The notes beneath the pieces are model-generated. The model ran no database searches and was not told the origin of the DNA. It worked only from the letters and a program-made list of their open reading frames with translations. A program made the position numbers and the translations under genes. Below are positions 2,941 to 40,722 of a stretch of 44,681 nt of DNA, piece after piece. The number at the start of each line of letters is the position of its first letter. Within the stretch, counting starts at the first letter, position 1. This DNA is from Okeania sp. KiyG1 (GTDB taxonomy: Bacteria; Cyanobacteriota; Cyanobacteriia; Cyanobacteriales; Microcoleaceae). The DNA is taken from contig NZ_BLZO01000135.1 of NCBI RefSeq assembly GCF_014132355.1, positions 1-44,681 on the forward strand, written 5' to 3'.

Positions 2941-3203
2941 TTTTACCGAGAAATTGTGGTCTAAAACCTACCCTTTTAAAGGGATAAAAAAGAGAATATT
3001 CCTTATGTCAAGCCTCCTTATTGCAGAGGTACTGTTTTGCTAGCGCACAACTTTCCTAACGGAATGAAGGGCGCAAACGTTAACGCCCGCGACATGTTTG
3101 CGGAGCATGACAAACGGAAAGCGTAGCTCCTCCGGAGGAGGCTAACTGATAACTGTTAACGCAGTTCCTCCGGAGGAGGCTAACTGATAACTGAAATGAC
3201 TTC
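2941..3203 (+). repeat. Composite heptad-tailed repeat (family A) with palindromes
   Basis: Starts TTACCGAGAAATTGTGG and continues through ACCCTTTTAAAGGG, AGAGAATATTCC and CCTCCTTATTGCAGAGGTAC, all of which recur in the same order (inverted) at 25622-25735 and 28502-28640. The distal part has two TCCTCCGGAGGA palindromes (near 3130 and 3169), each followed by GGCTAACTGATAACTG. An extra segment with CGTTAACGCCCGCG separates the two parts. Confidence 0.7.
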
Positions 3204-3434
3204 TGCTATCTGCATAAGTATTTTTACACACAGTAAAATTTATATATCGAGGATGACTATATATGAAATTGTAAAATATTTACTTCCTTAGCGCAAGACT
3301 TTGCTAAATCCTAAAAATATAAATATTTTGTCTATAATAATATGTATTTTTCACAAAAAATATAGATTTAGTGATTTTTAACTAGGATAAATAAATTATA
3401 AAAAATAATTATAAATTTAAGAGATATTGATATT

Positions 3435-5866
3435 ATGCACCCAAATTCTTTATCTGATTCAGAATTAATATCTGAAAAGAAATTTTCTAAAATTTTGGCA
3501 GAAATATCTCTCAAAATTCGCCAATCATTGGAGTTAGACTATATCCTCAATACTGCTGTAGCAGTAGTACGAGATTTACTCAATGTTGACCGTGTTTTTA
3601 TATATAAATTTCAACCAGATGGTAGTGGTATTGTTGAAGTAGAATCAGTTAGCTATCAATCAAGATCGATAATTAATGAAGTTCTGTATGATCCATGTTT
3701 TAAAGAAGATTTAATCAATCTTTATAAACTTGGTCGTGTGAGTTCAGCTACAGACATTACTAACAGTAATCTGCCAACTTGTTATGTAGAATTATTACTC
3801 AGATTTCAAGTACGATCTATATTAGTAGTACCTATTTTACAAGGAGACGATCTATGGGGATTATTAATTGCTCATCACTGTATTGATGCTAGAGAATGGC
3901 AAAATTCAGAAATAGAATTACTACAACAATTATCAGTGCAAATGGCAATTGCTATTCGACAAGCAGAACTTTATCAACAACTGCAACAAGAATTGAAGCA
4001 ACGTCAGCAGGCAGAAACTAAACTAAGAGAAGTTAATAAACAATTAAAAGCAAAACTTACAGAAAATAAAATATACGCAGATATAGTTAAAAATATGCAA
4101 GTTGGTTTGCACGTTTGGCAGATGGAAGACCTGAATGATGTTAGTAGTTTTAGATTAAAAGCGACTAATCCTGCTGTTACTCATTTAACTGGATATGAAG
4201 AAAAAGAAATAATGGGCAAGCGAATTAGTGAATGTTTTCCTCACTTATTAAAGACTGACTTACCAGAAATTTATGCTGAAGTTATTCATTCGGGAAAAAA
4301 TAGAGATTTGGGTGAAATTGAATATTTTGAACAACGAATTCCTCATAGTATTTTTGCAGTAAAAGCCTTTCCTTTGCTGAATAATTGTGTGGGTATATTA
4401 TTTGAAAATGTGACAGTTCGTCAAGAAACAGAAAATGAGCTGAAAAGACAAAAAAAAGTCATGCAAATGTTGACTACAATGAATCCTGATGGAATTTTAA
4501 TTGTTGATACAGAAGGTGTAATTCAATTTGTTAATCCTGCAGGAGCATTGCTTTTTGGTCGTACAGAAGATGAACTAATTGGAAAAGCTTTTGGGTTTCC
4601 TTTAGTTGTGGGAGAAAGAGTAGAAATAGAGATAGTCAGACCATTGAATGAATTGCGCGTAGAAATAGGAATGGCTGAAATGCGACTTGGCAATATAATT
4701 TGGGAAGGAAAAAAAGCTTATCTTGCCTCTTTTAGAGATATTACTGAACGAAAACGTACAGAGAAAACCTTACGAGAAATGAATGAAGCGATCGCTCAAG
4801 AAATTCAGGAAAGAGAGCAAGCACAAAATCAATCTCAAGAAGCTAATAAAAAATTAACAAATTGGGTCAAAGCTTTAGAAAGTCGGAATCAAGAAATTAC
4901 CTTACTAAATAACATGATTGACTTACTTCAAGCTTGCTTTACTGTTGAAGAAGCTTGTCAAGTTATTCTGCCATTAATTCAAAATTTATTTCCCAATACT
5001 TATGGATCGGTATTTAAAATTAGTGATTCAAGAATGTTAGTTGAAGCCATTGCAAATTGGGGAGCAAAAATACCAGAAGAAACACTTTTTTCCCCCCATG
5101 AATGTATTGCTTTACGTCGGGGAGAAGTTCATTTTGTAGAGGATACTCAAACAGCTTTAACTTGTAAACATCTGCCACAACCATTACCTAAAACAACATT
5201 ATGTATACCGATTATGGCACAAGGCCAAGCCATTGGAGTTATTTCATTTTATTATCAAGAAAAACAAAAATCACAAAAGAAGAACATCAATTAGCGATAA
5301 CATTAGCTAAACAATTTGGACTAGCTTTAGCCAATCTCAAATTACAGGAAACTTTGAAAATTCAAAGCATTCGTGACCCTCTAACTGGATTATTTAATCG
5401 CCGTTACTTAGAAGAATTTCTGAATAGAGAAACTTACCGAGCTATTAGAACTGAAAAGCCTATTGGTATAATTATGATTGATGTAGATCATTTTAAAAGG
5501 TTTAATGATGAATTTGGTCATGCTGCTGGAGATATTATTCTCAAAAATTTAGGCTCTTTTTTAAAACAGAATGTTAGAGATTATGACATAGCTTGTCGTT
5601 ATGGTGGGGAAGAACTAATTATGATATTACCAGGAAGTTCTTTAGAAAGCACCGCAAAAAGAGCCGAACAAATCAGGAAAGAAATCAAACAATTATCTGT
5701 AGAATATGATGGTATACTGCTAAGTTCTATTACTGTTTCTTTAGGAGTTGCTTGCTTTCCCGAACATGGCAAAACTGGGGAAAAGGTGATTCAAGCTGCT
5801 GATGCTGCTCTTTATCAGGCTAAGTATGAAGGACGTAATCGAGTTGTAGTAGCTCCAAATTCTTGA
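3435..5866 (+). CDS. DXCF-cyanobacteriochrome GAF / PAS / PAS / GAF / GGDEF diguanylate cyclase, frameshifted
   Basis: Predicted light-sensing c-di-GMP synthase. The first frame (3435-5294, 619 aa) has GAF1 (about 15-180), a short coiled coil, two PAS domains (about 210-340 and 345-440), a second coiled coil and GAF2 (about 495-610). GAF1 has DPCF with Cys88 and TCYVELLLRFQV with Cys116. This is the second-cysteine DXCF motif plus the canonical bilin cysteine, 28 residues apart as in TePixJ. The GGDEF domain follows in the -1 frame and ends at 5866. It has RDPLTGLFNRRYLEE, the active site RYGGEEL and an RDYD inhibitory site five residues before it, so it looks catalytic and product-inhibited. 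The frames join at AAAAACAAAAA (5260-5270), where one base seems lost. The join is frameshift, slippage or sequencing error. Signalling direction and colour are unknown. Confidence 0.85.
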
Positions 5867-5883
5867 ATATTTTATTTATAGCA

Positions 5884-5918
5884 GGTAACAGGTAACAGGC
5901 AACAGACAACAGGCAACA
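5884..5918. repeat. Heptad tandem array, unit GGYAACA
   Basis: Five units: GGTAACA twice, then GGCAACA, GACAACA, GGCAACA. The same unit recurs at 17857-17891. Confidence 0.9.
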
Positions 5919-6062
5919 GTGGGAAAAACATTGCCCAGTCTAAAATTCATAAATTGAAACTAAATTTCCTAGAAATTTTGTTGGAAATCATTATAAGCTT
6001 CAGGTAAGTGGGAAACCACCGTCCTTTAAGCGAAGGTAAAAAATGGGTATTTTAATATTCCA

Positions 6063-6933
6063 ATGTCTAGGAAATTCAAGGCTGAATATAGTGCAGTTAA
6101 AATCCCCTTTCCAGAAAGATTAGTAGGTAAACATCTCAAGGAAGTTAGAATAATTCCTAGATATGATGCTAGGTTTTTTGAAAGCGTAGCTCCTCCACAG
6201 GAGGCAGTAGAATTTATTACAGAAGAACAACCACAACCAAAAGTAAAGTCTGACAATGCTTTAGCAGTAGACCTTGGTCTAGACAATAAGCGCAACTTGT
6301 GTATCAAACACTGGGTCATCATTTATTTTAGACGGTAGAAAACTTAAATCAATCAACCAGTGGTACAACAAAGAAAAATCGCTTATTGCAGTCTATAAAA
6401 GATAAACAAGGCATCAAAGGTTTAACCAAAAAGCAAGTTAGTATTACGGTAAATCGAAACAATAAAGTTAGGGATTACTTCAATAAAGCAGCTAGATATT
6501 TAATCAACTGGTGTACTGAAAACAAGATATTTACTTTACTATTGTTGTCGGTGTTAATCACCGAATCAAACAAAATATCAATTTAGGTAAAAAAACTAAC
6601 CAAAAGTTTGTACAAATACCACACCATAGTTTCAGGTTTAAGCTAAAAACTATGTGTGATAGATATGGATTAACCTATATAGAACAAGAAGAATCTTATA
6701 ACTCTAAAGCTAGTTTTTTAGACGGCGATCAGTTACCTGTTTACAATACTGATAATCCAAGTGAATACAGTTTTAGTGGCAAACGAGTCAAACGTGGTTT
6801 GTATAGAACTAAGCAAAAGAAATTGATAGATGCAGACTGTAATGCTGCTGCCAACATTGGAATCAAAAGCAACCTTATGGGGGTTTACCCCGGACAGATT
6901 AGAGGTATCTTTGGCTATACCATTAAGGGTTAA
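6063..6933 (+). pseudogene. tnpB: TnpB (IS200/IS605 accessory RNA-guided nuclease family), decayed
   Basis: Read across three frames this is a TnpB missing its N-terminal part. RuvC residues are visible in pieces: Asp in [10 protein letters not shown], Glu in YIEQEES and Asp in DADCNAAANIG. The run from SYNSKASFLDGD to KRVKRGLYR is typical of a TnpB subgroup without zinc-binding cysteines. Lesions: shifts near 6300, near 6380 and near 6535, where ACTTTACT looks like a 5-nt duplication. A 24-nt in-frame palindromic insert lies at 6183-6206, splitting RFFE from VEFITEE. The gene cannot make a full protein. Confidence 0.85.
6183..6206 (+). repeat. Palindromic 24-nt insert inside tnpB (family F)
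   Basis: AGCGTAGCTCCTCCACAGGA followed by GGCA, with hairpin CCTCC-ACA-GGAGG. It adds SVAPPQEA without changing frame. Nearly the same string with TCCTCCGGAGGA lies at 3116-3140. Confidence 0.75.
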
Positions 6934-6987
6934 ATTTGACGTGGATTTATCCGGGCAAATTTATGACCCTTAAGAATCCACGCGGAT

Positions 6988-7173
6988 TTATTGATCCCGT
7001 GGAGTGTCAAAAGAGGTTTGAGGAAATACATTTATATTACGATCAGAATAACGAGTAATGGCCAATAAAGGTAGTGTCAGAGTCAGTACAGCGATCGCAC
7101 ATCCCAAAATATTTGCAATCCTTTGAGGAGGTTCATCGTCCGAGTAACTGACAGGTTGACTATCTGATTCCAT
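6988..7173 (-). CDS. Small single-pass membrane protein, unknown function
   Basis: 61 aa with a polar acidic N-terminus (MESDSQPVSYSDDEPP) and one transmembrane segment, about residues 21-40 (ILGCAIAVLTLTLPLLAI), then a basic turn. I do not recognise a family. The last codons (D T P R D Q and stop) lie inside the right end of the neighbouring IS200/IS605 remnant, so the native C-terminus has been replaced. It is next to and on the same strand as the 120-aa gene and the cyclase upstream, at spacings of about 100 and 60 bases, so co-transcription is possible. No clear ribosome binding site is seen. Confidence 0.5.
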   Translation of the reverse strand: MESDSQPVSYSDDEPPQRIANILGCAIAVLTLTLPLLAITRYSDRNINVFPQTSFDTPRDQ

Positions 7174-7271
7174 ATTAAAAAAGCTTCTAAAAACTTAAAA
7201 TTGTTAGTAGTAATACTGAGTAGCAATACAAGTTGTATTATTATAATGGAGATTGCTCTAAACTTTTATTG

Positions 7272-7634
7272 TTAAAAACTACGATTTTTTTCAGTAACTT
7301 TGTCCCTAATCTCTTGAGCTGTTTGTGCCAGTACAAGAGATCTTTGACCCATACTTACAGGTAGTCTAGGTATATCTGCCAAAGAAGCACGAGATAAATC
7401 CAACAAAAGTTGACGGACTTTTTCTACCCATTCTAAAGAATCTGGAGGAATAACTTGGCCATCAGCTTTTTCTTGAATAGTTTTTGCTTTCTGTGCTAGT
7501 GGTAGAGCTTTGTCTGCAAGATTTTCTGGTAGTTTAGGCTTATCCGACAAGGAATTACGGACAACTTCAAACAATAATTGATGAACCTGATCTATCCACT
7601 CAGTATCTGAGTAGTGGGAATTTAAATTAGTCAT
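7272..7634 (-). CDS. Conserved two-repeat helical protein, unknown function
   Basis: 120 aa from ATG at 7634; an in-frame TTG at 7655 would add seven residues but is weaker. The protein is two copies of a roughly 45-aa unit. The first has EWIDQVHQLLFEVVRNSLSD ... KLPENLADKALPLAQKA and the second EWVEKVRQLLLDLSRASLAD ... RLPVSMGQRSLVLAQTA. Each is predicted to form two or three amphipathic helices, and no catalytic motif is seen. It lies 62 bases downstream of the CyaB-type cyclase on the same strand, so it may be co-transcribed with it. Function is unknown. Confidence 0.75.
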   Translation of the reverse strand: MTNLNSHYSDTEWIDQVHQLLFEVVRNSLSDKPKLPENLADKALPLAQKAKTIQEKADGQVIPPDSLEWVEKVRQLLLDLSRASLADIPRLPVSMGQRSLVLAQTAQEIRDKVTEKNRSF

Positions 7635-7696
7635 AACTAGGGCTAGTTTTTTCAAAATGAGAGCTAAAATTCTATTTTTATTTAGATAGAAATTAT

Positions 7697-10435: not shown

Positions 10436-11037
10436 AACAGTTTAATTAAATATTTTGGATGCTCTTTCTATGTAAGGCTTTTCAGTCCTTCAAGATCAAT
10501 TTGTTAATTAATATTAAGAATTGAGTGATTTAAAAATCATTCATATCTGTAGTGTAGTCTAACATAATTAAATTTTTACTCTTCTTTCAATAAATTTATT
10601 CTAAATATTTTTAGATAAGGTCTACTACAAAAGTTCTAAGTGTTAGCTTCAGGTTCTTCAGTTATGAAAATTTTTTTGACTTTTAACCCCTTAATTTAAT
10701 GCTAGCTCTTCAATAAGCATATTAATTTTGTTTGATAGTATAGAAGCTTATATCTTGCACTTGCTCAACCTTTAATTCATAATTATCAAAACTATCATTA
10801 CTAAAAGTTTCTAATTTATTCTCCACATAGAAGCAAGTTTTTATTTGTTGTTAAAATTGTGCCCTCTTGTTGTTTGATATTCATAATATAGCACAAAAAG
10901 TTGCTATTGATACTATGGATAGTGTTATATCTAAGTTGATAATTCAACATAATCTACACAATTTTTTGCCATTTGTTAAAGTCAATTGTTAATGTTATTC
11001 TATATTATTGTATTTTTAATAGAATCGGTATCATGGA
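10436..11037. other. AT-rich spacer between cyaB and recN
   Basis: About 600 bases with no supported gene, RNA or repeat family. It should contain the cyaB promoter (leftward) and the recN 3' end. Confidence 0.5.
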
Positions 11038-12798: not shown

Positions 12799-12807
12799 TT
12801 ATTCAAG

Positions 12808-12988
12808 GAATTCAAGAATTTAGAATTTAGAATTTAGAATTTAGAATTTAGAATTTAGAATTTAGAATTTAGAATTTAGAATTTAGAATTACCTCTCGTT
12901 GAAAACGGATAGGATTGACGAACAGGAAAATTTTTATTTATTATCCCCTTAAAAAGGGAGGCTTTAAACCACAATATTTCGGTAAGAA
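12808..12988 (-). repeat. Composite heptad-tailed repeat (family A), copy upstream of recN
   Basis: On the minus strand it reads ACCGAAATATTGTGG, TTTAAAGCCTCCC, AAGGGGATAATAA, CAATCCTATCCG, GAGAGGTAATT, then the heptad array. Same order as copies at 38369 and 40541 but without the GGTCGA hairpin that those carry. Confidence 0.75.
12816..12889. repeat. Heptad tandem array, unit GAATTTA, about ten units
   Basis: Longest array in the window, just upstream of recN. The same unit (four copies) with the same flanks (TTCAAG on one side, ACCTCTC on the other) is at 40547-40574. Confidence 0.92.
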
Positions 12989-19830: not shown

Positions 19831-19865
19831 GAAGTCAGAAGTCAGAAGTCAGAAGTCAGAAGTTA
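19831..19865. repeat. Heptad tandem array, unit GAAGTCA
   Basis: GAAGTCA four times, then GAAGTTA. It lies in the divergent spacer between the SpoIID-type gene and rnz and runs straight into a C-rich repeat. Confidence 0.9.
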
Positions 19866-22619: not shown

Positions 22620-22620
22620 C

Positions 22621-22662
22621 GAAGTCAGAAGTTAGAAGTCAGAAGTCAGAAGTTAGAAGTCA
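22621..22662. repeat. Heptad tandem array, unit GAAGTYA
   Basis: Six units alternating GAAGTCA and GAAGTTA, starting one base after a stop codon. Confidence 0.9.
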
Positions 22663-22751
22663 GAAGGGAAAATTGCTCATGGATAGTCAATGACCGACCA
22701 CTTCGTGTCTTATAACCCTAAGCAATTTTAAGTACCCCCATTGACCAAAAA

Positions 22752-22971: not shown

Positions 22972-23775
22972 ATGATTTCAGTTTCTCATCGCTTTGAATC
23001 TCTACGCAATTCGGAAAATGGTCGCCAGTGTGCTTTTATTCCTTTTATTACGGCAGGCGATCCAGATTTGGAAACTACGGCCAAAGCTTTGGAGGTATTG
23101 GATAATAATGGGGCCGATTTGATTGAGTTGGGTGTGCCCTATTCTGACCCTTTGGCTGACGGTCCAGTAATTCAGGCTGCTGCTACTCGTTCTTTGGAAC
23201 GGGGGACTACTTTGGAGTCGGTGTTGGAGGTGGTGCAGACGACGAGCAAAAAGTTGCGATCGCCAATTATTTTGTTTACTTACTATAATCCGATTTTGTC
23301 TCGAGGGGTGGAGAGCTTCCTGAAAAAAGTTTATGATGCTGGTGCTAGGGGTTTGGTTGTGCCGGATCTGCCGTTGGAAGAGGCGGATATTTTGTTAAAA
23401 CCTGCTGGGGATATTGGGGTTGAGTTGACCTTGTTGGTGGCTCCTACTAGCCCAAAAGAGAGAATAGAGGCGATCGCTCGTCAGTCTCAAGGGTTTATTT
23501 ATCTGGTGAGTGTGACTGGGGTAACGGGAATACGTAATCAGGTACAGACACGGGTTGAAGATTTGTTGGTAGAAATGCGAGGGGTGACAGATAAACCTAT
23601 TGGTGTTGGTTTTGGCATTTCTCAACCGGAACACGCTGTGCAAGTAAAGGAGTGGGGGAGTGATGCGGTTATTGTTGGTAGTGCGGTGGTGAAGCGTTTG
23701 GCAGAGGGGACGCCGGATGAGGGTTTGGAGGCGATCGGGCAGTTTTGCCGAAGTTTGAAGTCTGCTATTAGTTGA
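22972..23775 (+). CDS. trpA: Tryptophan synthase alpha chain
   Basis: Cleaves indole-3-glycerol phosphate to indole and glyceraldehyde 3-phosphate; works as an alpha2beta2 complex with TrpB, which is not in the window. 267 aa, TIM barrel. Catalytic Glu52 ([10 protein letters not shown]) and Asp63 ([10 protein letters not shown]) are present, as are [18 protein letters not shown] and the phosphate-binding GVGFGIS and VIVGSAVVK. Start ATG with no strong ribosome binding site. The gene is on the same strand as ndhL-DUF3007 but 350 bases away, with a repeat between. A heptad array begins just before its stop. Confidence 0.96.
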
Positions 23776-23822
23776 AGGAAGAAGGAAGAAGGAAGAAGGA
23801 AGAAGGAAGAAGGAAGAAGGAA
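23774..23822. repeat. Heptad tandem array, unit GAAGGAA, seven units
   Basis: Seven perfect GAAGGAA units starting at the trpA stop codon. Confidence 0.93.
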
Positions 23823-23994
23823 GACTGAAAATTAACTGTAGAAGAAGGGAAGTTGTAGGTAGTATGTCTGAACACCTAGTCCCTCTCTCAAAAATCTTGC
23901 CCCAGTGTTAAATAGATCGTAAAATTAAGAAATAATTATAAACTTCCGGTTGTGTTATGTAAGCCATTGTCCGGTAGTAGGGAGAAATGAAATT

Positions 23995-25615: not shown

Positions 25616-25621
25616 GGTTTT

Positions 25622-25735
25622 TTCAGTTATCGGTTATCAGTACCTCTGCAATAAGGAAGCTACGAAAATACGGAATTCTCTTTCTTTTATCCTCTTAAAA
25701 GGGGAGGCGCATACCCACGATTTTTCGGTAATTGT
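25622..25735 (-). repeat. Composite repeat (family A), copy between methyltransferase genes 1 and 2
   Basis: CAGTTATCGGTTATCAGTAC, CTCTGCAATAAGGA, GGAATTCTCTTT, CTTAAAAGGGGAGG, GATTTTTCGGTAA, in the same order as 28502-28640 but with only two heptads. Confidence 0.75.
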
Positions 25736-28497: not shown

Positions 28498-28501
28498 AAC
28501 T

Positions 28502-28640
28502 TGTCATTTCAGTTATCAGTTATCAGTTATCAGTTATCAGTACCTCTGGAATAAGGAGGCTTGAAATCTGAAATATTCTCTTTATGTTATCCCATTAAAA
28601 GGACAGGAGGCTTTAGACCAGAATTTTTCGGTAAAAATTG
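28502..28640 (-). repeat. Composite heptad-tailed repeat (family A), copy upstream of the pseudouridine synthase
   Basis: GTCATTT, four CAGTTAT heptads (28510-28537), CAGTACCTCTGGAATAAGGA, AAATATTCTCTTT, ATTAAAAGGACAGGAGGC and AGAATTTTTCGGTAA. Same anchors and order as 2941-3203 (opposite strand) and 25622-25735. Confidence 0.8.
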
Positions 28641-30109: not shown

Positions 30110-32749
30110 ATGGCTACTACACTTCCTTCCGCTCAAGACCAATATATGCTCGAATTGATCAACAGAGGTCGAGCAAATCCTCAAGCAGAAGCAGATCGTT
30201 ATCTAGATGGAATAAATGGAAGAGATGGAGACCTAAATCAAGGAGTTCGCGCACGAGATACAATCACCACTGATGCAAAACAACCTCTAGCATTTAATCT
30301 CAACCTGAATACTGCTACTGAAGATCACGCTCAATGGTTACTAGATGAGAACAAGTTTCAACACAGAGGAGAAGGTGGTACAAACTCCAGACAACGTATG
30401 CAAGCTGCGGGCTACACATTCACAAACCCCTCTGGTAATGGGGAAAACCTTGCTTGGTTAGGAACAACAGGTACGCCCAACCTCACTACTTTTGTGAGGA
30501 GAAACTACGAAAACTTGTTTATTGACAAAGACTACCGTAACAGAGGACATCGTGTAACTCTGATGAATGATGACTTCCAGGAAATTGGAATTTCTTCACT
30601 ACAGGGACGGTTGACTTCTGGTGGTAGAACTTTCAACGCAGTGATGAGTGCCCAAAACTTTGCTTATTCGGCAGCGAGTGGCCCATTTATCACAGGTGTT
30701 GCCTACACTGATGCAGTCACTGATGACGATTTCTATACAGTTGGTGAAGGAATAGGCGGAATAACAGTTACAGCGGTTGATACAGAAAATAGTGCTAATA
30801 CTTTTACCACAACAACTTGGGAGTCAGGTGGTTATAGTTTAGATGTAGACCCAAATGCGACTTACGATGTAACATTCTCTGGGGATCTCGATGGGGATGG
30901 TCAGGCAGATGATACAGCAACTTATGAAGTTACTGTTGGTTCCGAAAACGTCAAACAAGATGTAGTCAGTGACAATTTACCTTCATCTACTCCCACCAAT
31001 AGCGCCCCCACAGCAGTAGAAATAGATAACGATACTATTGCCGAAAATAGTAACAATAATACAGTGGTGGGTAATCTAACTACTTCTGACTCTGATGCTG
31101 GTGATACTCACACTTATGAATTATTAAATGATGCTAATGGTCGTTTTGCTTTGGATGGAGACCAAATAGTAGTTGCTGATGGTTCTAAATTAGACTTTGA
31201 AAGTAATGAGACTCATAATATTACTGTGCGCACTACTGATGATGGTGGTGAAAGTTTCAATCAACGGTTGACTATTAATGTAAGTAATGTGGATGAGACC
31301 CCACCTAATAGCGCCCCCACAGCAGTAGAAATAGATAACGATACCATTGCCGAAAATAGTAATAATAATACAGTGGTGGGTAATCTAACTACTTCTGACT
31401 CTGATGCTGGTGATACTCACACTTATGAATTATTAAATGATGCTAATGGTCGTTTTGCTCTGGATGGAGACCAAATAGTAGTTGCTGATGGTTCTAAATT
31501 AGACTTTGAAAGTAATGAGACTCATAATATTACTGTGCGCACTACTGATGATGGTGGTGAAAGTTTCAATCAACGGTTGACTATTAATGTAAGTAATGTG
31601 GATGAGACCCCACCTAATAGCGCCCCCACAGCAGTAGAAATAGATAACGATACCATTGCCGAAAATAGTAATAATAATACAGTGGTGGGTAATCTAACTA
31701 CTTCTGACTCTGATGCTGGTGATACTCACACTTATGAATTATTAAATGATGCTAATGGTCGTTTTGCTCTGGATGGAGACCAAATAGTAGTTGCTGATGG
31801 TTCTAAATTAGACTTTGAAAGTAATGAGACTCATAATATTACTGTGCGCACTACTGATGATGGTGGTGAAAGTTTTGAGCAACGTTTAACTATTAATGTA
31901 AGTAATGTGGATGAGACTCCACCTAATAGCGCCCCCACAGCAGTAGAAATAGATAACGATACCATTGCCGAAAATAGTAACAATAATACAGTGGTGGGTA
32001 ATCTAACTACTTCTGACTCTGATGCTGGTGATACTCACACTTATGAATTATTAAATGATGCTAATGGTCGTTTTGCTCTAGATGGAGACCAAATAGTAGT
32101 TGCTGATGGTTCTAAATTAGACTTTGAAAGTGATGAGACTCATAATATTACTGTGCGCACTACTGATGATGGTGGTGAAAGTTTCAATCAACAGTTGACT
32201 ATTAATCTCAGTGATGTGGATGAGACTCCACCTGAGCTTGAAAACTTCCGTACTATGTACGGAGGTGACAGGAACGACCGTATGCGTGGCACAATAGGTA
32301 ACGATTTTATCAACGGTGAAGGTGGCAATGATGTACTCATTGGGCGCCCAGGTGATGATCTACTGAATGGTGGTCTTGGAAACGATCAGCTCAGAGGTGG
32401 TTCTGGTAACGATACTCTTATAGGAGTAGATATAACTTCTGCTCAACCTGGTTATAATGAGAGAGATGTTTTGCAGGGCAGTGCTGATGCCGATCTATTT
32501 ATCTTAGGGGATGATAGTCAAGTTTACTACATTGGAAATGGTGTAAAGGATTATGCTCGGATTGAGACTTTCAATGGTGATCAAGGCGATCAAATTCAAC
32601 TATCTGGAAGTAGTGGTGACTATACATTAGAAGAAAATGTTTCTGGATTGCCAACAGGAACTGCTATCTACAATAATGATGATTTGGTTGGTATTGTCAG
32701 GAATGTTAGAAATATGGATTTGAATAGCAGTGATTTTTCTTTTGTATAA
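30110..32749 (+). CDS. Large surface/secreted protein: CAP (SCP) domain, four cadherin-like repeats, RTX repeats
   Basis: 879 aa, no N-terminal signal peptide. Residues about 5-195 are a CAP/SCP domain (AQDQYMLELINRGRANPQAE, DHAQWLL, ENLAWLG, RGHRVTLMNDDFQEIGI). About 200-295 is a beta-sandwich with a DLDGDGQADDTATY calcium-type loop. Then come four near-identical 103-aa cadherin-like modules (about 297-708), each with IAENS, SDSDAGDTHTYELL, DGSKLDFES and ITVRTTDDGG. The C-terminus (about 720-780) has RTX nonapeptides such as GGEGNDVL and GGSGNDTLIG. Type I secretion with calcium-driven folding outside the cell is the likely route. Role probably in adhesion or sheath; inferred. No secretion genes lie nearby. 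Confidence 0.9.
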   Translation: MATTLPSAQDQYMLELINRGRANPQAEADRYLDGINGRDGDLNQGVRARDTITTDAKQPLAFNLNLNTATEDHAQWLLDENKFQHRGEGGTNSRQRMQAAGYTFTNPSGNGENLAWLGTTGTPNLTTFVRRNYENLFIDKDYRNRGHRVTLMNDDFQEIGISSLQGRLTSGGRTFNAVMSAQNFAYSAASGPFITGVAYTDAVTDDDFYTVGEGIGGITVTAVDTENSANTFTTTTWESGGYSLDVDPNATYDVTFSGDLDGDGQADDTATYEVTVGSENVKQDVVSDNLPSSTPTNSAPTAVEIDNDTIAENSNNNTVVGNLTTSDSDAGDTHTYELLNDANGRFALDGDQIVVADGSKLDFESNETHNITVRTTDDGGESFNQRLTINVSNVDETPPNSAPTAVEIDNDTIAENSNNNTVVGNLTTSDSDAGDTHTYELLNDANGRFALDGDQIVVADGSKLDFESNETHNITVRTTDDGGESFNQRLTINVSNVDETPPNSAPTAVEIDNDTIAENSNNNTVVGNLTTSDSDAGDTHTYELLNDANGRFALDGDQIVVADGSKLDFESNETHNITVRTTDDGGESFEQRLTINVSNVDETPPNSAPTAVEIDNDTIAENSNNNTVVGNLTTSDSDAGDTHTYELLNDANGRFALDGDQIVVADGSKLDFESDETHNITVRTTDDGGESFNQQLTINLSDVDETPPELENFRTMYGGDRNDRMRGTIGNDFINGEGGNDVLIGRPGDDLLNGGLGNDQLRGGSGNDTLIGVDITSAQPGYNERDVLQGSADADLFILGDDSQVYYIGNGVKDYARIETFNGDQGDQIQLSGSSGDYTLEENVSGLPTGTAIYNNDDLVGIVRNVRNMDLNSSDFSFV
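31000..32235 (+). repeat. Four tandem 309-bp repeats inside the surface protein gene
   Basis: GCGCCCCC anchors start at 31002, 31311, 31620 and 31929, exactly 309 bases apart (103 codons). The units differ at only a few bases, with most changes toward the end of units 3 and 4. Such identity means recent duplication or ongoing homogenisation. Confidence 0.95.
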
Positions 32750-33205
32750 ACCTCTAGTTTATTCTGAATTTATTTTATAGTAGTGGTGCATTTGATGATT
32801 TTGGTAAAGGTATGGTGAGCATTTTAGCCACCATCCACCACGACTATGAAGTCATATCGTGTCCGTTGGTATCGTTTGTGTAAAAGTTGGGGAAATATCT
32901 ATCGTCATACAAAGTTTTTCCTTCTCTTGTAGGGGCGTTAACGATAGTTATGTGCAAGCTTTCGGCCGTTTGCTGACGCATAGCTCCGCTTTATATGTTG
33001 CGGAGCAAAACGCCCCTACTTCTTCCCTACCTTCTCTATACAATACCGATGCTACCGGACATGATATTAGAAGTAATATCAAATCCGTTTAATTCGGCAC
33101 GTAAAAAATGTTCCATCTTCAACCATTACCAAATATTTCTCGATATTCCCCTCCTCGGAGGGGTTAGGGGTGGGTTCCCATCTCCCCATCTCCCCATCTA
33201 CCCAT
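32750..33205. other. Spacer with hairpin repeats
   Basis: No gene. It holds TAGGGGCGTTAACG...CAAAACGCCCCTAC (about 32930-33018, a diverged, interrupted family G hairpin with GCTCCGC/GCGGAGC inside). It also holds a family H C-rich hairpin (33150-33180) and a run of four 8-bp TCTCCCCA-like units (about 33180-33210). Confidence 0.5.
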
Positions 33206-36200
33206 CTACCCCTCAAGCAAATGATTTTTGTGCGAAAAGACCGGACTTTTTTCACTATTTTCCATTCTACCTTGAAGCCAATAAGTAACCATTTCTCCTC
33301 TACCTCTAACCGAAATATTTCCCCGTGGTTCTAATAAATATTTATCTTTTAAGAGTTGATAAGTAGCTTGGGTAACTTGAATTTTTCCAGGTATTCCACT
33401 TGCTTCCATTCGAGATGCCACGTTAACTGTATCGCCCCACAAATCATAAATAAACTTTTTAGTACCAATTACTCCTGCTACAACAGTTCCAGTATTAATA
33501 CCAATCCGAATTTGGAAAGGTTTTCCCAAGTCATTTAAAAACTTAGGAATTGCCTGCTGCATATCTATTGCCATTTCAGCGATCGCTTCTGCGTGGTCGT
33601 CTCTAGCTGCGGGTAAACCACCAACAACCATATAAGAATCTCCGATAGTTTTAATTTTTTCTAAATCATGTTTTTCAGTCAATTGATCGAAAGCTGAGAA
33701 AATTCGATTGAGCATATCAACTAATTGATTAGGAGGTATCCGAGCTGAAAAACCAGTAAAATCGACAATATCAGCAAACAAAATAGTCACATTTTCAAAC
33801 CGTTTAGCAATTGGATGTTGATTTTGTTTTAATTTTTCGGCAATCTTTGCAGGCAAAATATTCAACAATAAACGGTCAGATTTTTCTTGTTCTAATCTGA
33901 GCGCCCTCTCTGCAGACTTACGTTTTGTAATATCTTGAATTGTACCTTCATAGTAAAGTATTTCTCCCTCAACATTACGAACTACACGAGCATTTTCAGA
34001 AATCCAGATTATACTACCATCAACACGATAAGCCTCTGATTCAAAGGATGATATAGAACCATCTTTTTCAAGGGCAACAATAAACTCAGAGCGACGATTT
34101 GGCTTAACATATAGTTGTTGGCTAATGTCAGTCATCTGATTTTTCAACTCTGTTTCTGAGGAACAACCATACATCTTGACTAAAGCAGGATTTGCACTAA
34201 TGAAATATCCTTCTGGGGAAGTTTGAAATATACCCTCTGCAGTATTCTCAAAAATGCTACGATATTTTTCCTCGGCTCGTTGTAGCGCATCTAGTACCCG
34301 TTTGCGTTCTGTAATATTACGTGCCACCCAAATCACACAGTTATCTGGTAATGGTGAAATATTAGCAGTAAACCAAATTTCATTAGGATTAGGAAGAGGA
34401 GAATAGGGATAGGGAGGCGAGCTAGAAGATTTGTTGTAATTAGGAACTTTGCATGAGATTCCCCATAGAGAGTTAGGCTTTTGAAGATTGCCGTTCTGTG
34501 GATTTACAAGTAGACTATATTCTAAATTAACAGTTTCATGTGTATTCAGCACCCGCTGAATATTAATCATAAATAGGTTTGCTTGTTGAGGTGGCAAAAC
34601 TTCATAAACACTTTTACCAATCAATTCATTGATGGGACTATATAACACTTCTGAATTAGTAGATAAGATTTTGACATATCTACCTTTAGCATCGAAGACA
34701 GTAATTACATCAGTCATTGCCTCAAACAAAACCCGCAGTTCCGCTTCTGATTTTCTTAAGGCGGTTTCTACTCGTTGACGCTCTGTAACTTCCATCATTA
34801 ACAAACGATTTGATTCTTTGAGAGCAGCAGTACGTTCCTCAACCTTTGTTTCTAACTGTTGATTAGCTCTTTGCAAAGCTTCTTGTGCTTGTTTACGTTC
34901 TGTAATATCTTCAACAGTTCCTTCGTAACGAATTAACTGACCATCTCGGTCTCGCACAGCTCTAGCATTTTCAGAAGTCCAGATCAGACTACTATCTCGG
35001 CGATAAACTTGTGACTGATAGTTAACTACAATATCTTGCTCCTGTAGCATTTGCATAAGTTGAGATCGGCTTTCTGGATTACCGTAAAGTCGATGTTGTA
35101 AGGAGGTAAGGTTAGTAATCATCTCTTCAGGAGATTCATAGCCATAAATTCTAGCTAATGCGGGGTTAACGCTGATGAAGTAGCCATCGGGAGTTGCTTG
35201 AAAAATTCCCTCGACGGCATTTTCAAAGATAGTACGATATCTCTCTTCTGCTTGTTTTAGTGCTGCTTCTGCATCTTTGCGCTCGCTAATATCAATACCT
35301 ACAGCAAAAGCTGCTTTTCCTCCAGCGTATTTTTGGGAAACAATTAAATAATTGCGAGCAACGCCATTCACATGAGCAGATACTTCTCGACAGTCATCGT
35401 GAGCGGGACTAGCAAAAAATTGGCGCATAAATTCAGTAAATTCTTGGCTGGCTTTGAGAAAGCCAATGTTTTGACCAATAAAAGCTTCTTTCGGTAAATT
35501 GTAAGTTTCTGCTAAATGTTTATTAACTCCCAAGTAGTGTAAATCTGAGCTAATCCAAGAAACAATTCCTGGTACTGCTTCTAAAATAGCTCCTAACTGT
35601 TCTTGAGTTGCTCCAAGGTCTGATTCAGCTTGTCTGCGTTCGGTAATATCAATACCAACAACAAATGCAGCTTGATCGTGATTATATTTGCGAGCAACAA
35701 TTAAATAATTTTTGGTTTTATTGTGGTAATTTGAAATAATCTCAGAAGTTATTTCCTGCTGATAACTTGCAAAAATTCTTTAATTAAGGTATTAAATTCA
35801 GAGCTTTTATCTATAAAACCAATATCTTTGCCGACAAAATCTGTTCGTGGTCGGTTAAAGATATCAGCTAATTGTTGATTGACTTCAATATAAGTTAAGT
35901 CTGAATTAATCCATGAAACCATTCCAGGAACTGCTTCTAACGCTGTTTCTAGTTTTTCTTTAGCTGCTAAAAGATTTTGTTCTGCTTGTTTGCGTTCGGT
36001 AATATCTATGCCTACTATAAAAGCAGCTTGGTTTTTGTTGTACTTTTCTGCTACAACTAAATAATTTCGAGGTTCTCCATGAATTTGTGATACTATTTCA
36101 CCTGTGATTTCAGATTCAGAACTGGCAAAAAACTTCTCAACAAATTTATTAAATTCAGAACTTGTGCCTAAAAAACCAATATTTTTACCCATAAATTCTT

Positions 36201-36906
36201 CTCTGGGTATACCAAAAATATCAGCTAGCTTTTGATTGACTTCTATATAACATAAATCTGAACTAATCCAAGATACTGTACCTGGTACTGCTGCTAATAC
36301 TGTTTGTAACTGTTCTTTGGCATTTATTAGGTCATTTTCTGCTTGTTTGCGTTCAGTAATATCTATACCTACTACAAAAGCAGCTTTGTTTTTGTTGTAC
36401 TTTTCTGCTACAATCAAATAGCTGCGAGGTTCTCCATGAACTATTGATGTAATTTCACGACTTGTTTCTAAATTTGAACTTTCAAAAAATTCTTGTAGAA
36501 AGTTATTAAACTCAGAACCTGCTCCTAAAAAACCAATACTTTTGCCCGCAAATTCTTCTGTAGGCATACCGAACATCTCAGCTACCTGATGATTAACTTC
36601 TATGTAGCGTAAATCTGAACTAACCCAAGATACTGTACCTGGTACTGCTGCCAAAACTGTTTTTAATTGCTCTTGGGCTGCTTTTAGAGCTATTTCTGTT
36701 TGCTGATGTTGAACTATTTCTTGCACTAAGCGATCGTTTGATTCTTTGAGTGCTGCAGTGCGGTCTTCAATTATGATATTTAACTGATGCTCATTTAAAA
36801 TGCAGCTTGAATTTGCCGTTTTTAGTTCACTTACAGTTTGGCGCAGAGCAATTAACTCCTGAATCAATTCCTCTTTAGTTTTATCTTGGTCATTCATAAT
36901 TTTCAA
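33206..36906 (-). CDS. Multi-PAS class III adenylate cyclase, frameshifted
   Basis: One gene of about 1230 codons in two frames. The 5' part (35749-36906, 385 aa) has a helical leader and three PAS modules of the type AVPGTVSWISSDLxYIEVN. One base appears lost at the A5 run 35771-35775 (T5 on the coding strand), after SSEFNTLIKEF. The frame continues FASYQQEITSEII, finishing the third module, then a fourth, then three more PAS domains and a short coiled coil. The catalytic domain has ADIVDFTGF and IKTIGDSYMVVGG (metal aspartates), Lys in KIKTIGD, Asp in YDLWGDTVNVASR (adenine-type pair), and the Asn and Arg of VNVASR. No membrane segment. It likely makes cAMP if translated as one chain; without the join, the catalytic part lacks its sensors. 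Confidence 0.85.
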
Positions 36907-37682
36907 AGTTTATGATGATCTGGGAGTATATTAATTTACAGCAGATTCCATGTAAATGTGGCACAGTAGTTCAGAGTCCAAATAATGAAAGCTTATTTAA
37001 CACCCATACTCAGGATTGGAAAAACTATATTCTTTCCTACTCCTTACTCTGTACGGACGTTGCATGCAACGTTCCTCCCTGCTCTGTACAGACGTTGAAT
37101 TCTAGTCCCTACTTCATAAACCACCGAATACGCTGTATATCTAATAGTGTACTTTTTGAAATAAAATTGTTTTGATTCCTATTTAATTTGTGGGTAATAA
37201 ATATAATTGTTATTATCAATTAATACTAACTGTTGACGATAAATATTAATGATTTTCTCTCTCCTACGAGAATAGTGGTTTTAATTTAGGTAGAGTGGGC
37301 TTGAATAATTTTAAAATATTAAATTTTTTTCATTTAAATCCTCCTATTTTCTATTTTCAAACCACCCATACTAAAAATTAATTAAATTGACAAAGGTAAC
37401 AATTTAACAGTTGTTTATATTTAGATGTCAGGGAGTTATCTACCAGTCTATTCACTGATCTAGTAGACATTTCCTGATATAATTTGTATCAATGATGATG
37501 TTTTTTTCTGGTTTTATATTTGTGTATCCCTGATTTTGAGAAGATTACACATGAAGATGCCCCACGATAGTCAAAAACTAATAATATTCTAACACTCTCA
37601 AATCTTAATGTCAAAAATTGGCCATAACTCAGAAATAAATTGTTACTTTTAATATTCGGGTAATAGGTATAGTTGGGAGTGG

Positions 37683-37712
37683 GGAACCCACCCCTAACCT
37701 CCTGGGAGGGGA
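37683..37712. repeat. C-rich hairpin repeat (family H), copy 4
   Basis: GAACCCACCCCTAACC-TCCTGGGA-GGGGAAGAGGGG. Confidence 0.65.
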
Positions 37713-37838
37713 AGAGGGGAGTGGGGAGTGGGGGGTGGGGGAGTAGGGGAGTAGGGGAGTGGGTGAGTGGGGGAGATTAAATATTGAAGTAATTATAGAA
37801 TTATCAACATATACTATATAACCGGATTCACAATTACA

Positions 37839-37873
37839 GGGAACAGGGAACAGGGAACAGGGAACAGAGAACA
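37839..37873. repeat. Heptad tandem array, unit GGGAACA
   Basis: GGGAACA four times, then GAGAACA. Confidence 0.92.
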
Positions 37874-38043
37874 GGGATAAGTGTTTCACTTAGTTTAGAG
37901 CGGTTTTCATTGGGGTAGACTGTAGTAGGGACCTTCCATGGAACGTCCCTACAACCCACATTCCGCACGTCAAAATGTAGTATCCCAGACTAAGCATTTA
38001 AACCCTTGCCTGATAATAATTATGAAAATCATCGTAAAATTTC

Positions 38044-38357
38044 GGTAAGTGGGAAACCACCGTCTTTTAAGCGGTGGATGGAAACGACGGGCGCGGATTT
38101 TAATCCGTAGTCAAAAAATGTGTTATAATTAACCTTAAACTTAAAAAGTAGCCTCAATGGTCTTTTGGCCGGAGAGAGTAGTGGCAATTGACACCGCCTA
38201 GTAGGGGCGATTCGCGAATCGCCCCTACTGCTGCTGTATACGTACTACGGTACGGTACTGGCAATGTGGTTGTTGCGAGCAATGTGAAAATCGAGGTTTT
38301 AACCCGATTTACAACTCCTAGTCACGAATCCACGCGGATTTATCCCGTGGAGTGTCA
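38044..38357. mobile_element. Short non-autonomous IS200/IS605-type remnant (PATE-like)
   Basis: Shares the left module GGTAAGTGGGAAACCACCG (with hairpin CCACCG...CGGTGG, weaker in the other copy) and the right end CCACGCGGATTTATCCCGTGG-AGTGTCAAA with the tnpB remnant at 6002-7012. Between them, a frame with PERVVAIDTA and a stop may be the last codons of a tnpB, so this could be an internally deleted element. A palindromic family G hairpin (GTAGGGGCGATTCGC/GAATCGCCCCTAC) lies inside at 38201-38228. Confidence 0.65.
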
Positions 38358-38368
38358 AAGGTAAAAAT

Positions 38369-38545
38369 ACATATTACCGAAAAATTGTGGTTTAAAGCCT
38401 CCCCTTTTAAGGGGATAATAAGCGGTCGAGGGATGGCGAGGTCTCCTCGCCATATCCAATCGACCAAGAGAAGAAAAATTTTCATGAATTTGTCAATCCT
38501 CTTCTTTTCAAGGAGAGGTAATTATTCATTATTCATTATTCATTG
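38369..38545 (+). repeat. Composite heptad-tailed repeat (family A) carrying the family E hairpin
   Basis: TTACCGAAAAATTGTGG, AAGCCTCCCCTTTTAAGG, AGC + hairpin 38424-38465 (GGTCGA, ATGGCGAGG-TCT-CCTCGCCAT, TCGACC) + AAGAGAAG, GTCAATCCTC, TTTTCAAGGAGAGGTAATT, then three ATTATTC heptads (38521-38541). Confidence 0.8.
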
Positions 38546-38703
38546 TTGAAACAGGCTATTAATATAAATTCTCAAAAATAGAGGCTGTAATCCAAATTCT
38601 TCGTTAAAAATACCCTTGTAGTATGTTTGTGGTGCGGAATGTGGGCTACAAGATTTTGCTTGTGAAGATGTGGCTCATCAATTTGAAAACCGCTGTAAAC
38701 TCT

Positions 38704-39096
38704 TTATCTCACTGCAATACAGTCAATTTCTACAAGTACATCTTTGGGTAAGCGAGCAACTTCAACACAGGCACGAGCAGGGGCATTTTCGGGGTCGAAG
38801 TATTTACCGTAAATGGCGTTGACGGTGGCAAAGTCGTTCATATCTTTGAGGAATACGGTTGTTTTGACAACATTTGACCAAGTGGCACCTGCTTCGGTGA
38901 GTATAGCTTCTAGGTTTGCCATAACTTGTTCTGTTTGTTTACTTACATCCTCGGTGTAGACTATTTGATTGATTCTAGTATCGATCGCTATTTGACCGGA
39001 GACGAAAATCATTTGACCTGTGGCAGCGATCGCTTGATTATATGGGCCAACTGGTTCGGGGGCTTTGTCAGTTTTGATTATTTTGCGGGTTGTCAT
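38704..39096 (-). CDS. ridA: RidA family enamine/imine deaminase
   Basis: 130 aa. Hydrolyses reactive 2-aminoacrylate-type enamines made by PLP enzymes such as threonine dehydratase, protecting the cell. Family marks present: PEPVGPYNQAIAATGQMIFVS, the GQIAID loop, and APARACVEVARLPKDVLVEI with the substrate-binding arginine (Arg108) and neighbouring Cys110. Usual family length, start MTTRKIIKTDKAPEP. Monocistronic. Confidence 0.93.
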   Translation of the reverse strand: MTTRKIIKTDKAPEPVGPYNQAIAATGQMIFVSGQIAIDTRINQIVYTEDVSKQTEQVMANLEAILTEAGATWSNVVKTTVFLKDMNDFATVNAIYGKYFDPENAPARACVEVARLPKDVLVEIDCIAVR

Positions 39097-39210
39097 ATTT
39101 TGTTTTTTTTGTTAATTGATTATGGCTTGGTGTTGATGGCTAATAATTTTCAGCTTGATACATTTCACCATTTGGCATTATTGCATAATTAAAGTCTGTT
39201 TTTGTAACTT

Positions 39211-39530
39211 TAATGGTAAGCATTTAGCTGTCAGCACTTCAGCACTTCCCTGCGGGATGCGCTCGCATTCAGCTATTGTCTTTAGTTTGAGATAAAAGCT
39301 TTACTAATTGAGGTATAATTTATACTTACTACCAAAGTTTACTTTAAAGTCTATATTTATCAGGACTTACGCAGAGACTCTACATATAGGGAGGGCGAAT
39401 GCCATTTGCTAGCGCAGAGCTGCCGCTAACGCCCCTACAAATGGTGGTTGAAAAGTCAATTTGCGTAAGTCCTGTTTATATAAACTTCCTCATGAGAGCT
39501 GAGAGCTGACAGCTAATAGCTGAATGCTAA
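39211..39530. mobile_element. MITE-like element (family C), copy 3, with nested family B element
   Basis: Starts GTAAGCATTTAGCTGTCAGC, then CTATTGTCTTTAGTTTGAGA, and ends GCTGACAGCTAATAGCTGAA with ATGCTAAT (terminal repeat partly decayed). A family B element sits inside at 39361-39474. Confidence 0.7.
39361..39474. mobile_element. MITE with CAGGACTTACGCA ends (family B), copy 1
   Basis: 114 bp, ends CAGGACTTACGCA/TGCGTAAGTCCTG, direct flanks TTTAT (39356-39360 and 39475-39479). A GGGCGAATGCC...ACGCCCCTAC core lies in the middle. Confidence 0.85.
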
Positions 39531-39634
39531 TGTAGTTATATCAAATCCGGTAGCATCGGTATAAAATCTTTTGAAGTAGGAGTCAGGAGTCAGGATAAAT
39601 GGGAATTATAGAGGAGATAGTAGGAAGAATGAGA

Positions 39635-39765
39635 TATAGTGATTTTTCTGCCCAACTCTTGACCAAAATCCTAAGTTTTTGAACCTGAGACACCTAAAAA
39701 ATCGTACTTTTTGATACTTAAAAGACTAATTTTTTATCTGTAATGACTTTTAGATTTAATCAAAA
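39635..39765 (-). repeat. Dispersed repeat, copy 2 (inverted relative to 15455)
   Basis: TGATTTTTCTGCCCAACT...CACCTAAAAAATCG...GACTTTTAGATTTAATCA; complement of the anchors in 15455-15600. Confidence 0.55.
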
Positions 39766-39770
39766 AGCCC

Positions 39771-39798
39771 TAATTATTAATTATTAATTATTAATTGT
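39771..39798. repeat. Heptad tandem array, unit TAATTAT
   Basis: TAATTAT three times, then TAATTGT, directly after the dispersed repeat. Confidence 0.85.
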
Positions 39799-40540
39799 TT
39801 AATGCCATCATCTTGCTATTAAGTAGAACGGTGCAAAAAAACAGCAAGTTAGTAACGAAAAGTAAATTTGCTAAAAACTCTCTTCCTTTCTGCCTTCTAC
39901 CCTCTGCCTCCTGCCTTTTCATAACGATAATTTTCAACACCGACCTACTTATTCATCTATTTTTTGACCACAATGGGGACAAATTATAGATTTTTTATTT
40001 TGATTTGAAGCCCGTTTTTTTTCTATTTCTTCAGTAAAACCAGAAGCAACTATACCTGCTGGTAAAGCAAATATACCAACTCCTATTAATGCAACGATCG
40101 CCCCTAAAAATCTACCCAAAGGAGTAACAGGATAAACATCTCCATAACCTATAGTAGTTAAAGTGATAATTCCCCACCACATAGCAGCAGGAATATGAGG
40201 AAAATTATCTGGTTGAGCTTCATTTTCAGCGAAGTAAATCAAACTGGCAGAAGTTACTAATAAAACTAAACCAATAAATAAAGCAATAACTATCTCTTCT
40301 TGTTTTGACTTGATAACTTGACCAAATAATTTGACTGTAGTTGAATATCTACCAATTTTGAATAATCGAAATATTCTAAATAAGCGAAACGAACGAGTAA
40401 ATATTAGATTTGGCCAAAATAATGGTAAATAAAATGGAAGAATTGCGATTAAATCAATAATTGCTAAAGGTTTAACCATAAATCGTATTCTTCCCCATAC
40501 TGGATGTTTATATCCAGAAGCAACATTGGATGACCAAACC

Positions 40541-40722
40541 CTTCAAGAATTTAGAATTTAGAATTTAGAATTTAGAATTACCTCTCCTTGAAAATGGATA
40601 GGATTGGGTTAAAAGGATTTTTTTCTTCTCTTGGTCGATTGGATATGGAGAGGTTTCCTCGCCATCCCTCGACCGCTTTTTTCTCCATGAATGGAGAGGC
40701 TTTATACCTTAATTTTTCGGTA
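40541..40722 (-). mobile_element. Composite heptad-tailed repeat (family A) inserted in the channel gene
   Basis: Minus strand: TTACCGAAAAATTAAGG, AAAGCCTCTCC, AGC + hairpin 40633-40674 (GGTCGA...TCGACC) + AAGAGAAG, CAATCCTATCC, TTTTCAAGGAGAGGTAATT, four heptads (40547-40574), CTTGAA. The host gene fixes the borders to within a few bases: ...TIEYIL before and RVWSS... after. Confidence 0.8.
40547..40574. repeat. Heptad tandem array, unit GAATTTA
   Basis: Four units. Same unit, order and flanks as the ten-unit array at 12816-12889, so array length has changed between copies. Confidence 0.9.

Follow-up and report, generated by a model that had tools for sequence, protein, structure and literature searches.

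The window analysed here, a stretch of 44,681 nucleotides of Okeania sp. KiyG1 (contig NZ_BLZO01000135.1, positions 1 to 44,681), holds six copies of a short dispersed repeat (Table 1). A first-pass annotation, made from the letters alone, had reported copies at 2941, 12808, 25622, 28502, 38369 and 40541, and a copy is present at each of these places with slightly shifted bounds. The two body types that it distinguished are also borne out, with three window copies each (type 1: 12811, 38374 and 40542; type 2: 2943, 25617 and 28503). The shared ACCGAAAAATTGTGG-type end and core were described correctly, in that a CCTC... core with a palindrome is found in all six, although the sequence is diverged in some copies and most in the 2943 copy. 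With a probability of roughly 0.88, the family consists of gene-less IS200/IS605-type elements of 105 to about 500 nt that belong to the class of palindrome-associated transposable elements (PATEs) and carry an internal linker of heptads. This reading is based on the definition of both ends, insertion at TTAC without duplication, a covarying left palindrome, complementarity between guides and cleavage sites, signs of recent spread, and the resemblance of the left ends to those of IS200/IS605 elements that bear TnpB. The earlier suggestion of a non-autonomous mobile element that does not move by cut-and-paste with inverted ends agrees with these results.

Table 1. Copies of the element in the window and parts of the best-preserved copy. 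Positions of whole copies include the 4-nt target TTAC.
Feature	Position	Strand	Remarks
Type-2 copy	2943..3200	+	Target TTAC 2943-2946; element 2947-3200 (254 nt), ends AAATGAC; heptad linker 3028-3200, interrupted by nested inserts
Type-1 copy	12811..12985	-	Target TTAC 12982-12985; element 12811-12981 (171 nt), ends TTGAA; linker 12811-12893 with about 11 CTAAATT heptads
Type-2 copy	25617..25731	-	Target TTAC 25728-25731; element 25617-25727 (111 nt); about 2 degenerate heptads; right end decayed to AAAAAAC
Type-2 copy	28503..28634	-	Target TTAC 28631-28634; element 28503-28630 (128 nt); linker 28503-28544 with 4 ATAACTG heptads
Type-1 copy, best preserved	38374..38550	+	Target and left cleavage site TTAC 38374-38377; element 38378-38550 (173 nt)
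Left guide AAAG, 38374 copy	38394..38397	+	Element +17 to +20; from the sequence and the IS608 rule (consulted part of PMC5934647)
Left palindrome, 38374 copy	38400..38415	+	Starts 2 nt past the guide
Optional inner hairpin module GCGGTCG...CGACC, 38374 copy	38422..38465	+	
Right guide CAAT, 38374 copy	38494..38497	+	From the sequence
Right palindrome, 38374 copy	38498..38518	+	9-bp stem
Linker with ATTATTC heptads, 38374 copy	38519..38546	+	Between right palindrome and cleavage site
Right cleavage site TGAA, 38374 copy	38547..38550	+	Last bases of the element; boundary type from empty sites
Type-1 copy	40542..40723	-	Target TTAC 40720-40723; element 40542-40719 (178 nt), with inner module; heptad linker 40542-40582

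A 24-base head pattern (at most 2 mismatches) returned 353 + 367 = 720 matches in the 10.98-Mb KiyG1 genome, and the reversed pattern, used as a control, returned 0 + 0. The six window repeats are real members of one large family, far above chance. Copies from KiyG1 were sampled from loci fetched for matching and from about 1.16 Mb of longer stretches, partly picked around matches; the 210 heads obtained are a biased sample out of about 720. A type-1 right palindrome is found in 129 of these heads, a type-2 palindrome in 25 and neither in 56. The copies that were read through to the right end (hereafter, complete copies) comprise 114 of type 1, with lengths of 105–527 nt, and 24 of type 2, with lengths of 111–472 nt, all of them too short for a transposase gene.

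Read from the left, the target TTAC is followed by CGAAWAATTNNGGTNT, the guide AAAG and the left palindrome CCTCTCCTTTAAAGGAGA or variants of it. The middle holds the optional GCGGTCG...CGACC hairpin module, a short AT-rich body and a second guide, CAAT in type 1 and CAAG in type 2; it is followed by the right palindrome, the heptad-holding linker and the terminal tetranucleotide, which is TGAA in type 1 and TGAC in type 2. Terminal inverted repeats are absent, as the element starts with CGAAAAATT and finishes with TTGAA or AAATGAC at the boundaries defined by empty sites. The type-1 right end is T[N]TTGAA (TTAA instead in 9 copies) and that of type 2 is AACTGAAATGAC with at most 2 changes. 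A recurrent sequence therefore follows the heptads in all six copies of the window as well as in the 114 + 24 complete copies, and the array is not, contrary to what had been proposed, the far end of the element. That heptads are usually found towards this end holds for four of the six window copies, in which the array is clean; the exceptions are the 2943 copy, with its nested inserts, and the degenerate 25617 copy. Within the array of the former, nested repeats are seen at 3035-3190, including CTCCTCCGGAGGAGGCTAACTGATAACTG or a close form twice.

Empty counterparts were sought by matching the left flanks of 192 heads, from KiyG1 and its relatives, to loci without the element, with flanks compared over 20 + 20 bases. 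Candidates were obtained for 23 of the 192 heads, corresponding to 18 insertions, some of which are common to several species. Graded by eye, ten of these are exact (L002, L033, L052, L062, L067:17535, L076, L101:8842, L101:15966 with three counterparts, L121:9693 and L126:7477), in that TTAC is present in both states and the next base of the empty site is the first base of the right flank. Seven with a changed letter at target or junction are near (L081, L082, L101:14295, L101:18312 with its counterparts, L114, L125 and L190), and one was dropped (L011, a nested inner repeat). The window copy at 28503 is an eleventh exact insertion, its empty site in Okeania SIO2C9 reading ...TTTTTAC/AAGTTATGG (the slash marks the junction). 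The copy at 25617 is the same insertion as L126:7477, filled at that place in L126 and empty in SIO2B3 and SIO1I7 (...CATTAC/CTTAG; loci L122 and L123). As several relatives are empty at both window sites, these differences point to insertion rather than loss.

In all 11 exact cases the empty site reads ...TTAC/flank and the filled site ...TTAC/CGAA.../flank, with no target duplication and no loss of bases. Six of the 11 are between species and five are paralogous KiyG1 sites; eight involve type 1 and three type 2. All four species have TCAA as the right end at L101:15966, and the left flank of L121:9693 is only a 76–83% match to its empty counterparts. Two insertions, L062:16008 and L114:185 (reverse-strand offsets), seemingly share one target TTAC in a different repeat family (TTAC/TAGCCAGTTTATTTGTAAC), other KiyG1 copies of which are empty. 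The junctions also bear on whether head, body and heptads move separately, a point on which the first-pass annotation had asked for an empty-site comparison: all move as one, and only the inner module and nested inserts come and go. A classical miniature inverted-repeat transposable element (MITE), with short inverted ends AATTACC / GGTAATT and moved by a DDE transposase, is suggested by the type-1 left TTACC and the GGTAATT after the right palindrome, which together resemble an inverted repeat. However, GGTAATT is not terminal, the left TTAC is target, the right end at empty sites is TTGAA or ATGAC, and no target duplication is seen. The empty and filled junctions rule out such an element, to which we give next to no weight.

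For IS608, the consulted part of the published account (PMC5934647) gives the cleavage sites as TTAC and TCAA and the guides as AAAG and GAAT, with pairs A+16:T-3 and A+17:T-4 and a preference for C at +1. The pairing rule derived from it joins cleavage letter 1 to guide letter 2, letter 2 to letter 1, and letter 4 to letter 4. The elements studied here begin with C at +1 and have their left guide, AAAG, at +17 to +20. All three pairs form between TTAC and AAAG in 99 of 114 type-1 and 17 of 24 type-2 complete copies, and between the right TGAA and CAAT in 96 of the 107 type-1 copies with a located guide. Moreover, cleavage position 4 is A in type 1 and C in type 2, and the guides change accordingly (T or G); swapping guides between the types breaks that pair.

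The left palindrome was assessed on 68 aligned sequences out of 111 distinct left ends, in which 83.8% of cells pair. Both sides are changed in 38 cells, against a shuffle mean of 15.2 (0 of 500 as high) and 6 to 16 for slid versions, and the covariation score of 0.246 likewise exceeds all 500 shuffles and the slid versions. Folded as single-stranded DNA, the 38374 copy has a z of -5.6 relative to shuffles, with both palindromes and the inner module visible. The right palindrome is called from its 9-bp stem in the 38374 copy and is weak in type 2. Behind the left palindrome, the inner module is present in 53 of 114 type-1 and 4 of 24 type-2 complete copies, and one insertion is seen with it in one species and without it in another (loci L189 and L193). 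The module can carry further inserts itself (locus L011), and it recalls the SMR-A elements that target PATE palindromes in Haloquadratum.

The linkers are strongly periodic. Among those of at least 24 nt, the mean self-match at period 7 is 0.79 for the 107 linkers of type 1 (against 0.18 to 0.44 for the other periods between 3 and 11) and 0.60 for the 22 of type 2 (against 0.19 to 0.28). A length of 34 nt is found in 58 of 114 complete type-1 copies; 82 of the 105 type-1 copies ending in TGAA have a linker of 6 modulo 7, and 12 of 24 type-2 copies one of 0 modulo 7. On whether the heptad unit depends on the target or on the subfamily, a question raised at the outset, the unit is found to follow body type: AACTGAT is present in 21 of 24 type-2 copies (no unit could be read in 3), and the type-1 units are mostly AT-rich and only loosely tied to the head variant.

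One identical array occurs in 17 KiyG1 copies ahead of 16 different right flanks, from which it follows that the array travels with the element. Nine module-free copies carry this array, and six of them, 127 nt long, are identical throughout; identical copies and shared array together reflect recent spread with the array on board. At an insertion common to three species the linkers are 40, 34 and 27 nt and the total lengths 134, 180 and 195 nt, so that heptad units, and inner inserts, evidently change in place. A small insert AACTAGACAGTGCAAAGTTC...ACTCTCCAG is located inside the heptads of one shared insertion (L101:15967, L183:15427, L184 and L185) and is absent from the G042 copy of that insertion (L186).

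These observations bear directly on the mechanism first envisaged, in which an element with a fixed head is copied by target-primed synthesis and a heptad tail is added at each insertion. The constant head, the variable number of heptads and the lack of inverted ends are all compatible with it. It is contradicted by the recurrent end past the heptads, the identical array in 17 copies, the in-place change of units at the three-species insertion and the exact TTAC junctions. A constant 3' terminus and co-mobilised arrays rule out target-primed tails, and we hold that mechanism to be extremely improbable.

Alternatively, the heptads could be the target, with a short element inserting into pre-existing arrays. 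Heptad arrays are a general habit of the KiyG1 genome, and 17 of the 20 period-7 arrays in the window are outside the six copies (for example at 1766-1801, 19831-19863, 22621-22666, 23774-23824 and 37836-37877). The exact insertion L033 is into another family copy, beside that copy's heptads, and AT heptads stand to the left of the target in the near case L114. Against this, the other ten exact empty sites have no heptad array at the target within 20–30 bases, and the element's own arrays occupy the stretch from the right palindrome to the right end and are absent from the left end. The empty sites without heptads rule out this explanation, which is left with a negligible likelihood.

If the family is indeed of IS200/IS605 type, transposition may be envisaged as follows. 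A Y1 (HUH) transposase, TnpA, supplied in trans, would fold both subterminal palindromes on one DNA strand. Its left cut would fall 3' of TTAC, its right cut 3' of TGAA in type 1 and of TGAC in type 2. The joined ends would form a single-strand circle, to be inserted 3' of a new TTAC that is picked by pairing with the guide AAAG. On this reading the heptad array is an internal, slippage-prone linker that is carried along in transposition and whose unit number alters in place.

It is conceivable that the array does more than this and acts as an adjustable single-strand linker, made and trimmed by the transposition machinery and tuning cleavage at the right end. Length steps of 7 nt, the mode at 34 nt, units similar to the cleavage-site sequence, and an array at the same place but with another unit (TCAACTG) in a second genus would fit such a role. 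On the other hand, heptads are common elsewhere in the genome, and shared descent within subfamilies explains part of the length mode. We know of no IS200/IS605 element in which a heptad linker tunes right-end cutting, and consider the proposal doubtful, with the balance clearly against it. Were linker length functional, the question would arise of how far the right cleavage site may sit from its guide in single-strand transposition.

Several results weigh against assignment to the IS200/IS605 type. The orientation of neighbouring copies is the same in 14 of 28 pairs, with no strand preference on these draft contigs, and agrees with the sign of the GC skew in 11 of 33 cases, giving no lagging-strand signal on draft contigs whose origin is not placed. 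The right linker is much longer than that of IS608. At the right end, one pair is missing in 10 and two pairs in 1 of the 107 type-1 copies, and for type 2 (TGAC/CAAG) all three pairs form in only 9 of the 19 copies with a located guide, which was not located in 5 of 24. Among the near empty sites, the target letters are other than TTAC in one or both states in four of seven (TTAC in three). Further pair types at the left palindrome do not stand out (92 of 500 shuffles are as high, and slid versions are higher), and the count of pairs with double changes does so weakly (10 of 500 shuffles; one slid version is higher). The folded stretches of three other window copies are no better than shuffles (z -0.01, 1.2 and 0.2).

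Finally, a scan of 54 Y1 loci for TTAC, AAAG and a hairpin, with some ends judged by eye, revealed no recognisable TnpA gene flanked by TTAC/AAAG ends. These loci, some of which overlap, derive from 24 KiyG1 matches (all 24 loci taken) and 141 matches in ten relatives (30 fetched). The scan returned chance-like matches and the TnpB element of L177. A KiyG1 element with tnpA and tnpB (L164-L166) fits the guide rule, read by eye, with TTAG/AAGC and TCAC/GAAG, and these ends exclude it as the mobilising partner. Element matches of about 80 bases or more are found near the Y1 loci L163/L173, L168/L172, L181, L205, L209, L212 and L217; by our estimate, copies near Y1 loci are no commoner than copy density predicts. 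Locus L212 (G042; 1120-1944) has an open Y1 transposase-like frame of 159 codons with a type-1 copy at its 3' end; in KiyG1 a copy is near a broken Y1 gene, seemingly at the same place (L168/L172). The Y1 frame of L212 with its adjoining copy is a lead for the missing TnpA, not a proof.

The same loci allow a different origin to be weighed, namely that the copies resemble repetitive extragenic palindromes (REPs) or the paired units formed from them (REPINs), spread by a domesticated REP-associated tyrosine transposase (RAYT, or TnpA-REP) and not by an insertion sequence (IS) transposase. KiyG1 does have RAYT-like Y1 genes (weak PF01797 matches in frames of 181-226 aa, such as L170 with HYNPVHHRLV), and guides beside palindromes are common to the REP and IS kinds in the portion of PMC8266576 consulted. 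The guides here are AAAG, CAAT and CAAG, and the GTAG guide by which that portion of PMC8266576 defines REPs is absent. Furthermore, the unit is two-ended, with left and right cleavage sites, and its left ends match those of TnpB-bearing IS elements. Five RAYT-like loci (L169, L170, L174, L176 and L182) have no full copy within 1.5 kb, and one copy is near L181, an 83-aa Y1 fragment. The lack of a GTAG guide and of copies beside the five loci lead us to reject a RAYT-made REPIN as improbable. The RAYT-like gene of L170 (G000:C79:30323-30688), of about 200 aa, is itself one of those with no copy within 1.5 kb.

Relatives of the left end support the assignment to the IS200/IS605 type. Forty sites with similar left ends were fetched from other genera (20 + 20). 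All eight of the open reading frames (ORFs) tested behind such ends match OrfB_IS605, many of the 40 sites having no such ORF; seven of the eight also match the Cas12f1-like TNB domain, and the four searched in NCBIfam all match TnpB families. Decayed TnpB-bearing copies with a similar left end are present in KiyG1 as well (L177 and L113). The gene-less elements L246-L248, L251 and L252 have the same left end, and no heptads were seen in the stretches of three of them. Thirty-seven sites were obtained by a pattern search in five genomes of one further genus of the taxonomic family (g9). At least two TCAACTG-like units are found within 260 bases of the left end in 17 of 30 fetched loci, and the end CAACTGAA or CAACTGTTGAA in 14 of these 30, some of which are TnpB elements or are cut by contig ends. 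What is new in these elements is the variable heptad array that separates the right palindrome from the cleavage site, seen in two genera with different units.

A protein encoded in the window has its nearest named relatives in Okeania species, with Hydrocoleum and Trichodesmium likewise close. In a scan of 62 genomes of the taxonomic family (28-base pattern, at most 3 mismatches), head matches number 277 to 757 in each of the six genomes of the own genus, 133 to 426 in four further genomes (G004, G056, G057 and G058) and 0 to 4 in the other 52. At the level of the order, a head match (at most 2 mismatches) was obtained in 27 of 291 sampled genomes. Hundreds are seen only in G000, G042 and G057, which were already rich in the family-level scan, and the others have 0 to 11. 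Plasmid and phage collections, queried with one copy each, gave no match, and an Rfam scan of the window matched a tRNA alone. No description of this family was recognised in the literature, which is weak evidence of absence as subscription journals were mostly outside the search. Apart from the family, the window contains four near-identical 309-bp tandem repeats at 30989-32233, within the long frame 30110-32749, and about 4 perfect copies of the 18-bp unit CCACCCTCCCCACAGGAA at 2225-2300.

A set of puzzling repeats thus becomes a defined mobile family whose guides allow its choice of target to be read. Small dispersed repeats and heptameric short tandemly repeated repetitive (STRR) sequences occur in the DNA of Nostoc and related cyanobacteria, and to our knowledge they have no IS605-type ends. 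In the present family tandem heptads and dispersed repeats are united in one anatomy, part of the heptads being internal and spread with the element. The left ends, to which the comparison is confined, resemble those of TnpB-only cyanobacterial IS200/IS605 elements (TTAC/C..AAAG and a palindrome); those elements, which we take to be the IS1341 group, differ in carrying tnpB. IS608 of Helicobacter pylori, in which we know of no heptads, encodes TnpA and TnpB, unlike the gene-less elements described here. Insertion 3' of TTAC, the left guide AAAG, C at +1 and the right-end pairing rule are nevertheless common to both, as far as the consulted part of PMC5934647 describes them; by the same account the guide is one base further in here, and the right sites and guides are TGAA/CAAT and TGAC/CAAG as opposed to TCAA/GAAT. 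The BrickBuilt MITE of Porphyromonas gingivalis likewise combines small size and mobility with an internal array of tandem repeats, but it has a 23-bp unit, inverted-repeat ends and 19 copies in strain ATCC 33277 (from the part of PMC4596501 consulted).

The closest resemblance is to the PATEs of Haloquadratum walsbyi, as described in the consulted part of PMC3119063, where 177 and 194 copies in 6 families are given for two strains. The PATE features tested were all found in the present elements: no terminal inverted repeats, palindromes near both ends, no target duplication, a non-coding length and, for the left ends, IS605-like boundaries. As in that description (PMC3119063), ends are common with IS605-type transposons and small nested elements are inserted. 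The present family differs in its bacterial host, in its 720 head matches of one family in one genome, and in the variable heptad array before the right end, which sets it apart from the H. walsbyi elements as that part of PMC3119063 presents them. Gene-less IS605 relatives, known in detail from a haloarchaeon, are now seen in filamentous cyanobacteria as well, with hundreds of copies in a genome, and the repeats of the window are, with the probability given at the outset, best filed as a new and very abundant PATE-type family in a marine cyanobacterium.

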